Shown: positions 22,799-34,686 of the stretch, piece after piece
Layout: every line of letters starts with the position of its first letter
How positions within the stretch are numbered: position 1 is the stretch's first letter
IMG/VR virus record: IMGVR_UViG_3300019758_000009
Location: 1-64,000 of that record
DNA length: 64,000 nucleotides
From: a virus
Direction: 5' to 3' (one strand)
Notes under the pieces: generated by a model
Told to the model about the DNA's origin: nothing
Databases searched by the model: none
Seen by the model: the letters and a program-made list of their open reading frames with translations, nothing else
Program-made: the position numbers and the translations under genes

Positions 22799-24100
22799 AT
22801 GCCAGAAATAAAATCAAAAGACTTTTCTACCGCCGACAACCCAGTAGTCGGAATGGATGAGGCCACCCTGCATTCGGTGTACAAGACTTCAAAGAAAGTC
22901 ATACAGGAGTATGTAAGGGAAATAGAACGACACAATAGATACAAAACGGCCAGAGCAGATTTTTCTACGAAGGTAATTATGGATAACCGCGCGGCCCTAA
23001 TCGATCTTTACGAGGCATGCATGCAGCAGGATGCCCATATGAAAAGCGTTATTGAGACATTAGAATCTCAGGTTCTCGGAGAGCGCTATATGATGGCCAG
23101 ACAAACTCAAAGTGGCCAATATGTCAAAAATATTGACGAAACGAAGAAAATTCAAGGCACCCAGTTCATAAAAATAATTAAAGGCATCCTAGAGTCGAAG
23201 CTTTATGGTTATACGTTGATCGAGCTAGGAAGAGGCACTCATCCTATTACAGGGAAATTGACTGATGTAAAACTTGTTGAAAGGAGAAACGTGTTAGCGG
23301 ACCAGCATTACGTTGTGAAACGCCAAGGTCAGTACTACCCAGGGTGGGATATAAATGAACCAGCTTATGTTGATGATTATGTTCTGGTAAAAAATGATGA
23401 TCTGGGTATGTTCTCAGCAACCACTCCGCTTATACTCGCGAAGAAATTCACATTCGCTAATTACGTTAGCTTTGCACAAACGTACGGCCAGCCAATAATT
23501 CAAGGAAAAACAGCCGATGAGGGCACTACGGCCAGGCAACAATTGGCAAATGAAATTGCCACGGCCTCAGCTCAGCGGATAATTGTTACCGGCCTACAAG
23601 ATGAGTTAAGTGTTCACGCTTTAGCTATGTCTAATTCAGAAAAGATATACACAAGTTTGGTGGATATGGTAAATGCTGAAGTTTCAAACTTAGTCTTAGG
23701 GTCAGAATCTATGGCTGGAGCTACACAGAGTTATGTTGGATCATCCAATGCCCATCAGGATATATTCAGAGATAGAATTGAGGTTTATCGTGAATACATT
23801 GAGAACATAATGAATGAAGAGATAATTCCAAGACTTGTTAAGAAAGGCATGCTTGAGCCTGGCAATGAATTTAAATACGCCAACAAACTTGAGATGTCTA
23901 ACGAGGACCGGATCAAACTTTACAACTTCATAACCGACAAATACAATGTTACTCCTGAAGAAATAGAAAAAGAATTTGGTATAGTCGTTGGTTCCCAGTT
24001 CAACGCGGCAATCGCTGCTGCTACTAACGAAAACCAAAAGCCAGCCACAACGAAATTGAAAAAAGTTGAGGCCAAGGTAAATTTTCTGACGAGGAAGTAG
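22799..24100 (+). CDS. Portal protein, Mu gp29-like (DUF935)
   Basis: The 433-aa protein fits the DUF935 portal family of Mu-like phages, with the long N-terminal helix, a TTPLILAKKFTFANYVSFAQTYGQPIIQGK core and the SSNAHQDIFRDRIEVYREYI region. Portals form the dodecameric ring through which DNA enters the head and to which the tail attaches. It starts the virion block. Its last codons hold a slippery AAATTTT and a hairpin that should send some ribosomes into the MuF frame. Confidence 0.85.
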   Translation: MPEIKSKDFSTADNPVVGMDEATLHSVYKTSKKVIQEYVREIERHNRYKTARADFSTKVIMDNRAALIDLYEACMQQDAHMKSVIETLESQVLGERYMMARQTQSGQYVKNIDETKKIQGTQFIKIIKGILESKLYGYTLIELGRGTHPITGKLTDVKLVERRNVLADQHYVVKRQGQYYPGWDINEPAYVDDYVLVKNDDLGMFSATTPLILAKKFTFANYVSFAQTYGQPIIQGKTADEGTTARQQLANEIATASAQRIIVTGLQDELSVHALAMSNSEKIYTSLVDMVNAEVSNLVLGSESMAGATQSYVGSSNAHQDIFRDRIEVYREYIENIMNEEIIPRLVKKGMLEPGNEFKYANKLEMSNEDRIKLYNFITDKYNVTPEEIEKEFGIVVGSQFNAAIAAATNENQKPATTKLKKVEAKVNFLTRK

Positions 24101-24119
24101 ACGGGTCTACTGCTTCCTC
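24079..24119 (+). promoter_or_regulatory. Programmed -1 frameshift signal, portal to MuF
   Basis: Heptamer A-AAT-TTT (24079-24085) sits in the correct phase of the portal frame. After a 5-nt spacer comes a 12-bp hairpin: GAGGAA (24091-24096) and GTAGAC (24097-24102) pair with GTCTAC (24105-24110) and TTCCTC (24114-24119), with a 3-nt bulge. The portal stop TAG (24098-24100) lies inside the stem. This is the standard bacterial layout for -1 frameshifting. Confidence 0.8.
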
Positions 24120-25014
24120 TATTGAATCGATCACAGCCAAGATCTCAGATTTTTACAATGTGCAGGCTGAAGCATCGAAAAATGACCTTGATGGAATAAA
24201 GGACATCACAAACGACGAGTACGTTACCTTATTAGCTATTTTAAGAGGGTTTTTAGAGGATTTCTATAACAATCCATCTCTATATATGACCCATACAGAA
24301 TTAATGGAACAGAGGGCTGTATTCGCTCTTAATCATGCATTCAATGGTTACGGGTTATCTTTTGAGAGAGCTATGAACATCGTGAAGCTTGAAAATAACG
24401 ACGGTTTAACGGATATCCAAATCGAAGAACGGGACATGCTTATAGGCCTGATAGATAACATCATAAACTTCTCGGTTGCCGCTGAGCATCAAACGTTAAT
24501 GAGTATATCTGAAGACAGAGAAAAGTCTGTAGATATGGAAGAATTTATGATTACGGCCATCAATACATTTTCCAAATACAACAAGACTTACGCAGGTATT
24601 GAGAATGAAGATATTTTCTTTGCATTAGGATTGGCAGCTGAATGGCTTAGGTTCGATGCTGAAACGATACTTCAATTCACAACTCAAGGCGATGAGAGAG
24701 TAAGGGATTCTCACAACGCCATAAATGGGCTAAGATACAGGAAGAAGGACTTCCCAGCTGCTTTGATACCCCCAATTGACCATGGGTGCAGGTGCTATTT
24801 GATTGATACAGGATCGACCGATGGTCGCAAGCTTACTAATAAGCCGAATGTATCAAAACTAATAGACGACGCTACAAACCCAGCCTTTAAATACAACGTG
24901 GCCACTTCTGGCCAAATGTTTGGTGAAGACCATCCGTATTTTGAGATTGGTAGCTCATATTTATCTATACTGGGAGCTACGGTGACCAAGATAAAAAGCA
25001 ACTTAGGTTTATGA
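24085..25014 (+). CDS. MuF-type head morphogenesis protein, likely portal fusion by -1 frameshift
   Basis: The C-terminal part carries the Mu F domain signature: TTQGDERVRDSHNAINGL and PPIDHGCRCYL, the motif of minor head proteins that enter the head with DNA. The frame has no ATG near its start. It is open from 24070, and the residues after the slippery site (SDEEVDGS, then SIESITAKISDFYN) are protein-like, so I start it at 24085 as an extension of the portal. The alternative is an isolated GTG start at 24160 with no recognisable leader. Confidence 0.8.
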   Translation, partial: SDEEVDGSTASSIESITAKISDFYNVQAEASKNDLDGIKDITNDEYVTLLAILRGFLEDFYNNPSLYMTHTELMEQRAVFALNHAFNGYGLSFERAMNIVKLENNDGLTDIQIEERDMLIGLIDNIINFSVAAEHQTLMSISEDREKSVDMEEFMITAINTFSKYNKTYAGIENEDIFFALGLAAEWLRFDAETILQFTTQGDERVRDSHNAINGLRYRKKDFPAALIPPIDHGCRCYLIDTGSTDGRKLTNKPNVSKLIDDATNPAFKYNVATSGQMFGEDHPYFEIGSSYLSILGATVTKIKSNLGL

Positions 25015-28654: not shown

Positions 28655-29206
28655 ATGGTAAAAATAAAAGACAACACCAATATCGACAGCGCAAAAGCTG
28701 GAGAAACACCGCAGCAAAAAGCAGCGAAAACCAGAAAAGCTAATGCTAAAAAAGTAAACGCTGAGGTAAAGCCTGAAGTTAAAGCTGAAGAGGTAAAGCC
28801 TGAAGTTAAAGCTAAAGAGGTTGAAGTTGAAGAGGTAAAGCCTGAAGTTAAAGCTAAAGAGGTTGAAGTTGAAGAGGTAAAGCCTGAAGTTAAAGCTGAA
28901 GAGGTAAAGCCTGAAGTTAAAGCTAAAGAGGTTGAAGTTGAAGAGGTAAAGCCTGAAGAAGCGATCAATATAACCGTAACACCACCCGTGCAGCCACCAG
29001 CAGACGCGGACCTCAACGAAACAAAAGAAGAGACTCCAATCTTTCCAGAAGACGGGAACGGGAGAACCCACCAGGCATTAAAGCTTCATAGTGACACCGA
29101 AGAAGTGTACATCAATAAGGCTGGTAGCCTGTTCGAGGTTTCTACTTACTCAGAAAAGTTTTTCGGTAAAGCAGTAAAGTACAAGAATCCACACTTTAAA
29201 AAATAA
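28655..29206 (+). CDS. Repeat-bearing virion protein (183 aa)
   Basis: Residues 30-105 are a tandem array built from EVKPEVKA and KEVEVEE units, Pro/Lys/Glu-rich and likely an extended, unfolded stalk. The C-terminal 55 residues form a small domain (EEVYINKAGSLFEVSTYSEK). Lying between capsid and sheath it may be a head decoration or connector protein. The repeats are also near-perfect at DNA level (28760-28960), so repeat number may vary between isolates. Confidence 0.7.
   Translation: MVKIKDNTNIDSAKAGETPQQKAAKTRKANAKKVNAEVKPEVKAEEVKPEVKAKEVEVEEVKPEVKAKEVEVEEVKPEVKAEEVKPEVKAKEVEVEEVKPEEAINITVTPPVQPPADADLNETKEETPIFPEDGNGRTHQALKLHSDTEEVYINKAGSLFEVSTYSEKFFGKAVKYKNPHFKK
28760..28960 (+). repeat. 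Coding tandem repeats
   Basis: The DNA unit GAGGTAAAGCCTGAAGTTAA recurs five times within 200 bp, separated by AAAGAGGTTGAAGTTGAA or a shorter spacer. Copies are nearly identical, which suggests recent expansion by slippage or recombination. Confidence 0.9.
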
Positions 29207-31053: not shown

Positions 31054-31446
31054 ATGGCAGAATTTAATGAAGACCAAGAGCAGGAGCTATTGATTAGCGC
31101 CTCATTGCAAAAAGACATCAAAGCTAAAGTAGAAGAGCTACAAAAGGTAAAGAAAGTAAAAAAGGTATTCCCTATTGCCGTAGAAGGTGACGAGGATGAC
31201 GAGAAAGACCTTTACGTCGCGTACTTTAAAGAGCCTACGTTCGCAGATTTCTCGAAGTTCACAGCTATGGGAAAATCAAACGAAACTCAGGCCTTACGCC
31301 AATTAGGCCGTGACTGCTTGCTGGATGGCGACAAAGAATTACTTGATGACGACTCATTATTCCTATTTGGATTAATGCCTCAGTTATCATCTATTGTTAG
31401 ATTCAGAAGAAGTCGAATCGTAAATTTATCAAAAGCTGGGAAGTAA
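31054..31446 (+). CDS. Tail assembly chaperone, short form (gpG-like)
   Basis: The acidic-helical 130-aa protein lies between tube and tape measure, the fixed position of the tail assembly chaperone pair. It has EPTFADFSKFTAMGK followed by an RQLGRDCLLDGD helix, as in Mu- and T5-type chaperones. Near its end the codons GTA-AAT-TTA form the slippery heptamer AAATTTA; a -1 shift there gives a longer product ending at 31613. Confidence 0.85.
   Translation: MAEFNEDQEQELLISASLQKDIKAKVEELQKVKKVKKVFPIAVEGDEDDEKDLYVAYFKEPTFADFSKFTAMGKSNETQALRQLGRDCLLDGDKELLDDDSLFLFGLMPQLSSIVRFRRSRIVNLSKAGK
31422..31428 (+). promoter_or_regulatory. Programmed -1 frameshift slippery site
   Basis: A-AAT-TTA in the correct phase (X-XXY-YYZ). 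The same GTAAATTT octamer occurs at the portal-MuF slippery site. No strong adjacent stem is seen here, only a weak AAGTG/CACTT hairpin 20 nt downstream. Confidence 0.8.
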
Positions 31447-31755: not shown

Positions 31756-34686
31756 ATGAATTATGGAGTTAGCTATAAAATAGACATAAATGGCAGCGCT
31801 GCATCACGAGAGCTTACTAGCTTCTTAAAAACAGCAAACACCGTCATCCCAAAGGTGAATGGTAAGTTTGACAGTATGAATAAGAAGATTAGAAAGACAA
31901 TTGAAAATGTAGAAAAGCTGCAAAGAGAGCTAAAGGAACTTAGCAAAATAAAGATTGATCTGAACTCAAAGTCGGCAATTAGAGACATCAGGGAAATCAA
32001 AAGAGAGCTTGATAAGATTAGAAATAAAAGAGTAAGAGTAACCATTGATCAGAGAAATCAATCAGGGGGTAGATCTACTAGCTCAAGACCAAGAGGGGTA
32101 TCAGCTTCCAGGCCAACAGCTATGGGAAGAGCATTCTCTCCTACATCAATGATGTCCGCTGGAGGGATACCGTTCGCTACTACCATAGGAGCAGGTCTTA
32201 TCGGTATGGGATTACGTTCTGTAATATCAGAAGCTTCTCAGTTTCAACATACAATGGTAAGTGTTAACGCTATACTAAGAACAACAGATAAAGACGCCGC
32301 CACCTTTAACCAGAGATTTGAATCTATGTCCTCTAATATGAGGCAGTTAGGTGTAGATACAAAATTCTCAGCAGTGGAAATCGGCAACGCTTCCAGGTTC
32401 TTATCTATGGCAGGCATGGGCATCGCTCAAATCGATGGATCGATGAAGGCTATCACAAATATGGCGGCCATTGGAGACACCGACTTAGGGGCCATGGCTG
32501 ATGTTGTGACAAACATAATGACCGGCTACGGTATAGGCCATGAAAGAATAAATGACGCCAGTGACTCTATGACCTCTATTACGTCACGAGCAAATGTAAA
32601 TATCATGGAAATGGGAGAGTCCATGAAGTACGCATCTAACTATATGCGTATGGCAGGTATAGATTTCAGTGAAGGAGCTGCAGCTGTAGGTGTTTTAGGT
32701 AATGCTGGTATGAAAGGAACTTTGGCTGGTACAGCACTTAGAGCTATGATAATCAGGTTAATAGCGCCAACCAAGAAAGCTCAGAAAGTAATCGACAGAT
32801 TAGGTGTATCCTTCACCAGAATGGTACCAGACGGCAAAGGAGGCATGAAAGAGGCAGTTAAACCGCTACATACAATATTTTCAGAGTTAAAAGGTGCTGG
32901 GGCATCTATGGAAGATCTGAAGTTAATATTTGACAAAATCGGTGGTGGTGGAGCTATGGCGCTTGTCAATAATCTAGACAAACTAAAAAGTCTTACCACA
33001 TCCGCAAGCTTTGCTGGTGGAGAAGCTGATTTTCTAGCAGAAGAAAAAATGAAGACGGTAGTAGGTTTGAGTCAACAGATAAGATCTAAATTTTTGGACT
33101 TAGGTCAAACGCTATTTGATAAATTATCACCTAAGCTGTCGCAAATGATGACAGACCTTCTTGGATGGCTAAAAGGAGATGATGCCAGTAAAATGTTCGA
33201 CTCTACAACAGAGGGGATAAGTGACTTGCTTGATGGACTCAAGAAAACCGCCATATTCGTAAAAGGTAATTGGCATTGGTTAAAATATGTTCTAGGCGGC
33301 ATGGCCGTTAAAAGTATAGCTGGAAGAGTTATTGGCATGGGATCGTCTATGGTCGGAGGACTAAGGGGAACTGGCAGTATGCTGGGGTCTGTAGGCAGAT
33401 TCGCTTTAGGTAGATCAGGAGCTGCTGCAGGAGCAGGTATAGCTGGTAGAGGCTTAGGAATGCTAGGTGGATTAAGTTCAGCAGGAGGAGCAGCAGCGAC
33501 AAGTGTTGGGGCCATGGCAGCGTCTTTAACTGCCTTAGTTGCAGGAGGAGCTATTGTTGCAGGAGTAGGAGCTATAGCTTATGCTGTATGGGATGTACAT
33601 AAAGCTTCGCAGGCAGTACAAGAGTCAAGGTCTGCAGTAGCTGATTGGTCTATGAAAACAGTAGGGGCCAACACGGAGTCCTTAGACATCATCCAGCAAA
33701 AACTAAACGGTATATATTACACCCAGAATAAAATATCTGGAGAGAAAAAAACTACCACTAAATCGTTCGGACAGACCAAATGGGACCAGTCAATCAAAGG
33801 TTGGAGAAAAACCAATAAGTGGTCATGGTTACCATGGGCATCTGGGGATGAAAGGAACAAAGATTTAACTGGCACTGTTAAGGATTTAGCTATATCCGGC
33901 AAAAGGGGCGAGCAGATCCGCAATATCTGGAAAGACGCTATGACAGGTGGCCCTGGAGGTATCAACGCTAACATCCAGAGAATAATGTCACTGAGAGGAC
34001 AATATGCCTCTATGAGTCAAGGAAAAACTCCATTATCAAGTATGATGGAAACAGGTATATATGGCGGGGGAAAGGGATACAACCAAGTCCTCCAGTCTAG
34101 AGATGCCTATCAGTCATTAATTGGTTTTGCGGACACAATGATCGATCAACTACAAAGCATGAGCAATGCTCTAGGCTTTGAAGGGAAAGGTCAAAATATA
34201 CATGTCTTAAAGTCACTAGACGCCTTACTTGGAGGCAAGATGAACTTAGGTGGCTTTATAGAGGATATGAAAACCGGCAGATATACAACTGGCGAGGACA
34301 TAAAAAACAGACTTGGAGTCAACAAACTAAGTGTTTCTGGTATCAAAACGACTCTGGCCAGCATGGGTATAGGGTCAGGTATGATAGACACGATAATACA
34401 AAAATCAGGCCTGCTACCATCCGTAAATACAAACATAAAGGGTGAGTCAGATATCAAAAAACTTACCAACGAAAGGGGCGTAGATGACCTGGATGGAGGC
34501 ATAGGAGGTTTAAGTGGTACCGGAAGAACGGGTAACAAAACCGGCAAGATGCTTATAGTAAATATAGACAGCTTGATGAATGTTGAAAATGCCAACTTCG
34601 CGAACGAAGAAGACATGGACTCTATGAAGGAGAAAATGGCTCAAGCATTAATGGATGTAGTAAAAGATTTTGAAATAGGTTACTAA
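31756..34686 (+). CDS. Tape measure protein (TP901-type)
   Basis: The 976-aa protein has an N-terminal coiled coil (residues 40-100), a TP901-type core with ASQFQHTMVSVNAILR, TKFSAVEIGNASRFLSMAGM and MEMGESMKYASNYMRMAG, then hydrophobic segments near residue 130-145 and 595-615 (ALVAGGAIVAGVGAIAYAVW). Its length sets tail length and it can enter the cell envelope during injection. Position after the frameshifted chaperone confirms the call. Confidence 0.95.
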   Translation: MNYGVSYKIDINGSAASRELTSFLKTANTVIPKVNGKFDSMNKKIRKTIENVEKLQRELKELSKIKIDLNSKSAIRDIREIKRELDKIRNKRVRVTIDQRNQSGGRSTSSRPRGVSASRPTAMGRAFSPTSMMSAGGIPFATTIGAGLIGMGLRSVISEASQFQHTMVSVNAILRTTDKDAATFNQRFESMSSNMRQLGVDTKFSAVEIGNASRFLSMAGMGIAQIDGSMKAITNMAAIGDTDLGAMADVVTNIMTGYGIGHERINDASDSMTSITSRANVNIMEMGESMKYASNYMRMAGIDFSEGAAAVGVLGNAGMKGTLAGTALRAMIIRLIAPTKKAQKVIDRLGVSFTRMVPDGKGGMKEAVKPLHTIFSELKGAGASMEDLKLIFDKIGGGGAMALVNNLDKLKSLTTSASFAGGEADFLAEEKMKTVVGLSQQIRSKFLDLGQTLFDKLSPKLSQMMTDLLGWLKGDDASKMFDSTTEGISDLLDGLKKTAIFVKGNWHWLKYVLGGMAVKSIAGRVIGMGSSMVGGLRGTGSMLGSVGRFALGRSGAAAGAGIAGRGLGMLGGLSSAGGAAATSVGAMAASLTALVAGGAIVAGVGAIAYAVWDVHKASQAVQESRSAVADWSMKTVGANTESLDIIQQKLNGIYYTQNKISGEKKTTTKSFGQTKWDQSIKGWRKTNKWSWLPWASGDERNKDLTGTVKDLAISGKRGEQIRNIWKDAMTGGPGGINANIQRIMSLRGQYASMSQGKTPLSSMMETGIYGGGKGYNQVLQSRDAYQSLIGFADTMIDQLQSMSNALGFEGKGQNIHVLKSLDALLGGKMNLGGFIEDMKTGRYTTGEDIKNRLGVNKLSVSGIKTTLASMGIGSGMIDTIIQKSGLLPSVNTNIKGESDIKKLTNERGVDDLDGGIGGLSGTGRTGNKTGKMLIVNIDSLMNVENANFANEEDMDSMKEKMAQALMDVVKDFEIGY

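Follow-up and report, generated by a model that had tools for sequence, protein, structure and literature searches.

The window analysed here is the first 64,000 nucleotides (nt) of IMGVR_UViG_3300019758_000009, a 79.8-kb virus record of IMG/VR, and the feature of interest is a candidate −1 ribosomal frameshift signal at the junction of its portal and MuF genes, both of which lie on the + strand. The portal gene (22799–24100, taken as frame 0) matches Portal_Mu (PF06074) with an E value of 2.9e-41 (142.4 bits against a curated cut-off of 23.9) and, if read without a shift, specifies 433 amino acids (aa) ending in ...KVNFLTRK. The MuF reading frame is −1 to the portal; it is shut on its upstream side by a TGA (24067–24069), is open from 24070 to 25014, and overlaps the portal gene by about 28 nt. 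Within the two-frame overlap (24070–24100) the final portal codons, GCC AAG GTA AAT TTT CTG ACG AGG AAG TAG, include the slippery heptamer A_AAT_TTT (24079–24085), which has the form X_XXY_YYZ in the zero frame. This is followed by a 5-nt spacer, CTGAC (24086–24090), and a predicted stimulatory hairpin (24091–24119) with its 5' arm at 24091–24100, loop at 24101–24109 and 3' arm at 24110–24119, the portal stop codon TAG (24098–24100) being part of the 5' arm. The hairpin lies within the distance of about 5–8 nt looked for in a stimulatory structure, and its minimum-energy fold is a bulge-free stem of 10 base pairs (one G.U) with a 9-nt loop and a stability of −14.9 kcal/mol (z −3.2, none of 200 shuffled sequences being equally stable). 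An initial annotation of this DNA had placed the heptamer, the 5-nt spacer and the hairpin enclosing the portal stop at these same positions, and the sequence agrees with it; its description of the stem as 12 base pairs with a 3-nt bulge applies to a variant and not to the minimum-energy fold.

The MuF part that would be read after a slip (24085–25014) is 309 aa long (SDEEVDGSTASS...) and, as the initial annotation had noted, analysis of open reading frames (ORFs) finds it open from the slip point with no ATG at its beginning. The first ATG in this frame lies 188 nt beyond the portal stop, and the earliest conventional start past the slip is a GTG (24160–24162), the position of which is not conserved among relatives. 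The conserved core of Phage_Mu_F (PF04233; 24667–24804, ...RVRDSHNAINGLRY...PPIDHGCRC) is recognised with an E value of 4.5e-7 (31.0 bits, curated cut-off 29.6), and is the only domain carried by this protein, which has no C-terminal toxin domain of the kind that follows MuF in the MuF polymorphic toxins (PMC5576092). A structure model of the MuF part is helical and well folded from about residue 35, with a mean predicted local distance difference test (pLDDT) value of 85, and its best fold matches are models of phage head morphogenesis domains (BFVD, E 4e-8). The portal model has low confidence (pLDDT 58.5), too low for any statement on the geometry of the crown, and residues 392–433 form a low-confidence tail. 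A sequence search of the PDB gave no relatives of MuF or portal, and structure comparison against the PDB gave weak matches only. The predicted fusion of the two proteins would have 738 aa and a mass of 83 kDa, with the junction KVNF|SDEEVDG.

Relatives were gathered from viral contigs, bacterial and archaeal genomes and GenBank phages by means of the portal, since a search using the MuF protein alone found none, its patterns being too variable. The initial annotation had left conservation of the signal in relatives to be checked, and it proved to be extensive: in 109 of the 138 loci with a portal ORF, a MuF ORF in the −1 frame overlaps the portal end and is accompanied by an in-frame A_AAT_TTT 18–27 nt before the stop. 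These loci represent 72 distinct junctions, in which the portal stop falls inside the predicted hairpin region. A chance heptamer can be ruled out, as in-frame AAATTTT is present in all 44 non-redundant junctions and only five times in the 20,003 codons elsewhere in those portals. GC-rich members carry the site against their own codon usage, as in L014 (59% GC), where TTT and AAT outside the site account for 0% and 8% of their respective codons. The signal is also found in a cultured virus, Bacteroides phage BS-TP1.

For covariation, 44 junctions less than 85% alike were used, and the arms were matched by a script with a swap control because MAFFT, when applied to junction DNA, placed no gaps in the loop. 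On average, 7.5 of the eight outer stem positions are paired, and the score of 17.9 for a sequence's own arms falls to 12.2 when the 3' regions are exchanged between relatives (z 13, 0 of 5000 permutations). G-C, C-G, A-U and U-A all occur at stem position 6, and the pairing signal peaks where the arm begins 5–6 nt past the heptamer. Judged by this pattern of compensatory change, the stem is selected as a structure.

The −1 frame also shows coding constraint where no start codon could account for it. In relatives that have their first ATG, GTG or TTG 182 nt past the portal stop, the differences between +20 and +182 are distributed over MuF-frame codon positions 1, 2 and 3 as 122, 58 and 389, and indels ahead of any start are of whole codons. 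Going by these substitutions, translation in the −1 frame already takes place ahead of the first start codon. The earliest start in the MuF frame falls at 30 different positions among the 72 junctions, with a median of +80, and 30 of these junctions have it 100 nt or more beyond the stop; for the first ATG the median is +149.

Slip site and ATG appear, from their distribution, to be two almost mutually exclusive routes to MuF. When a nearby ATG was scored in 92 distinct portals, 77 had the site only, 11 the ATG only, three had both and one had neither. The initial annotation held that homologues with a plain ATG start and no slippery site would speak against a frameshift; such homologues do exist, but 11 of the 12 non-slip relatives bear an ATG while 77 of the 80 slip relatives do not. 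The slip label switches six times on the tree of these portals, and with only three independent contrasts on well-supported branches the association is descriptive and not a formal phylogenetic test. In L045 the slip site is missing, and the gene directly after the portal is gpG-like and not MuF.

The survey covered Bacteroidota, plus Mu. Portals with an identity of just 20–25%, encoded by phages, plasmids and prophages of Bacteroidota, share the −1 overlap but have other signals at it. In five of these (L144, L145, L147, L166 and L170) GAY TRA and a GCCC...GGGC hairpin come after T_TTT_TTC, while four others (L139, L149, L164 and L175) have the same heptamer placed earlier, with a similar hairpin. 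L176 combines A_AAT_TTT CAG TAA with GCCCC...GGGGC, and A_AAA_AAG or A_AAA_AAA is found in L142, L177, L181, L182 and L189–L191. Two further loci, L173 (G_GGA_AAG) and L146 (ATG at +2), are not clear examples of frameshifting and were left out of the count. Every scanned −1 ORF of the distant portals matches Phage_Mu_F, with those of L139, L149 and L164 scoring under the curated cut-off. The Pfam MuF domain of L181 and L182 (residues 109–219 and 102–210) lies in its entirety ahead of the first ATG, GTG or TTG (+677 and +653), and could be produced only by frameshifting or by an unknown kind of start.

When 2.9 million viral contigs were scanned for DNA motifs, AAATTTT-N5-GGGAGCG...CGCTCCC gave 20 stretches and TTTTTTCGAYTRAGCCC...GGGC at least 120. 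Of the latter, 80 were examined; 78 mark the end of an ORF recognised as portal, and the other two have a very short upstream ORF and the same −1 MuF. Because the motifs came from portal examples, the scan speaks for specificity and not for independent origin. The stem of the TTTTTTCGAYTRAGCCC...GGGC motif also covaries (16.1, against 12.1 when swapped). Several distant −1 MuF proteins have toxin-like or polyvalent C-termini (L139, 4098–5729; L146, 4212–5738; L149, 2544–3953; L164, 2487–3899; L176, 2544–3890), the domains including Gln_amidase (L139 and L146), CdiA_C and LPD3, some of them below the curated cut-off. If these proteins are made by frameshifting, their toxin-like C-termini would be tethered to the portal.

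Taken together, the comparative evidence indicates that, in this phage and in a large, varied group of viruses infecting Bacteroidota, a portal-MuF fusion is very probably produced by −1 ribosomal frameshifting in a fraction of portal subunits. This was the core claim of the initial annotation, and conservation, covariation, coding ahead of any start and the near-exclusion of ATG starts all lend it strong support. Ribosomes reading ...GTA AAT TTT... would stall at the hairpin 5 nt downstream with AAT and TTT in the P and A sites; in some of them both tRNAs would re-pair one base back (AAT TTT to AAA TTT) and reading would go on in the −1 frame as MuF, while the remainder would unwind the hairpin, terminate at the TAG within it and yield the 433-aa portal. 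The fusions could then co-assemble with plain portals in a 12-subunit ring with their C-termini facing into the head, and the modelled portal tail (residues 392–433) could serve as a tether. Slip efficiency would set the copy number of MuF, an efficiency of around 10% giving one or two copies per 12-mer ring. If so, the co-translational fusion of some portal subunits would be a simple and direct answer to the old question of how a minor protein is placed, in one or two copies, at the single portal vertex. More tentatively, and with rather less than an even chance of being right, it can be proposed that this is a recoding module spread among phages across a whole bacterial phylum, where it has been retained or has evolved anew with three or more classes of heptamer, and that it supplies each portal ring with one or two subunits bearing a MuF tail; in some lineages it would also tether toxin-like domains, and slip efficiency would then determine how much cargo accompanies the delivered genome.

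Several observations weigh against frameshifting as the source of MuF. Protein-level conservation accounts for part of the retention of Asn-Phe at the site, three slip loci also possess a nearby ATG, and a clear hairpin was not seen in several A_AAA_AAG relatives. L011 (near 3473), with G_AAT_TTT, has no ATG close by either. The permutation test of the stem ignores relatedness, and arm placement was picked per sequence; shared ancestry alone is nonetheless an unlikely cause of the pairing because the pair types vary. Lastly, GTG 24160 corresponds to residue 26 of the MuF part, just ahead of the confidently folded portion, which means that internal initiation alone could yield a near-complete MuF in the window, a possibility that the relatives argue against. 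As to L011, it is the sole close relative with G_AAT_TTT; its hairpin seems to be kept, and either a weakened site or a sequence error is possible.

The GTG also favours the main alternative, that MuF is translated separately by re-initiation or internal initiation, at 24160 or at a non-ATG codon past the portal stop, and that the heptamer is there by chance. The codon is in frame, a Shine-Dalgarno sequence is not required in Bacteroidota, and relatives without the signal have an ATG start for MuF close to the portal stop. Against this stand the variable start positions, the coding constraint on the −1 frame ahead of any start, and L181 and L182, which have no conventional start before the MuF domain; separate translation would also leave the heptamer and its covarying stem with no reason to persist, and it is considered improbable. 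A hairpin that terminates transcription or serves in translational coupling, with any fusion arising from transcriptional slippage, is more improbable still. It would suit a GC-rich hairpin at a gene end, and some distant relatives do have A runs (A_AAA_AAA) on which RNA polymerase could slip, but polymerase slippage needs a longer and more uniform run than A3T4, and the stem is tied to the heptamer (5–6 nt) and not to the stop, from which the heptamer varies in distance. A terminator as such was rejected, as no T run follows the stem on its 3' side. Least credible of all is the idea that the frame change reflects gene decay or a mistake in sequencing or assembly, and that the true gene is one in-frame fusion. 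In-frame portal-MuF fusions exist, in Microbacterium phages (PMC7302621) and in the Bacteroidota genome of L178 (214–2664, − strand), where a single 817-aa ORF is a natural in-frame fusion of Portal_Mu and MuF, but about 110 loci, from assemblies made independently and with isolate genomes among them, have the −1 overlap and retain heptamer and stem, and this recurrence refutes an assembly error. The C-terminus of the L178 protein has a weak PBECR2 nuclease-like match.

Frameshifting as the route to MuF would have consequences for annotation. The records of BS-TP1, Peternella_1, TCUEAP3 and a Segatella plasmid have MuF annotated separately, starting well beyond the portal stop, so that the fusion is missed and the N-terminus of MuF is cut. 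Deposited MuF starts at internal codons, about 100–280 nt past the portal stop, were observed in L003 (3904–4680), L142 (4173–5336), L143 (4404–5417) and L144 (4248–5579), and these annotations probably truncate MuF. Elsewhere in the window, a tandem repeat with a 69/42/27-base period (28763–28958, + strand; KPEVKAE-like) lies in the gene that follows the candidate major capsid gene.

The initial annotation knew of no described portal-MuF frameshift, and none was found in the open-access literature, a coverage that excludes subscription papers and preprints. PRFect (PMC10885494) names MuF-like genes together with VIP2, as fusions already known to be single genes and not as portal-MuF frameshifts. 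The closest parallel is the −1 frameshift in the tail assembly chaperone genes of tailed phages, such as lambda gpG/gpGT (Xu, Hendrix and Duda 2004, as cited in PMC7302621, PMC3556154 and PMC2628397). Here too, the first gene has a heptamer close to its end, a minor share of the product would gain a C-terminal extension from the −1 frame, and the arrangement is conserved in divergent phages. Unlike G/GT, the genes are those of portal and MuF, and the product would be a stable component of the virion ring with a domain inside the head, not a chaperone. Tail chaperone pairs lie between the major tail protein and the tape measure, whereas the portal and MuF genes adjoin gpG-like and protease genes. 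The window has a second likely −1 site, A_AAT_TTA (31422–31428, + strand), near the end of a 130-aa ORF (31054–31446); the −1 frame runs for 63 codons from the slip to 31613 (KFIKSWEVKKWQTLRQYEAYV...), upstream of a putative tape measure gene (31756–34686), and resembles the usual tail chaperone frameshift.

The same adjacent genes and domain families are present in Mu (gp29/gp30) and SPP1 (gp6/gp7), for which we know of no slip-dependent fusion; in Mu, unlike the present case, gp30 is annotated as its own coding sequence in the +1 frame, starting 17 nt before the portal stop. In-frame portal-MuF fusion genes, as in Microbacterium phage clusters EA3, EA5, EA8 and EB (PMC7302621), likewise place both proteins in one polypeptide (the domain order is shown for L178 only), but would put MuF on every portal subunit, whereas here only the shifted fraction would bear it. 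Among capsid and tail proteins, the −1 frameshift of the phage A2 major head protein and the +1 frameshifts of Listeria phage PSA, as cited in PMC10885494 and PMC10299305, are similar in that, as far as those citations go, recoding lengthens a structural protein of the virion and fixes a minor fraction; they concern major structural proteins of single phages, whereas this is a portal, and the pattern extends over many phages of a phylum. With frameshifts already known in tail chaperones and some capsid proteins and no portal-MuF case found described, what is new is therefore the portal-MuF frameshift and its wide distribution, a new variety of a known kind of recoding, and if correct it would set a conserved frameshift in the head module beside the well-known one of the tail chaperones.
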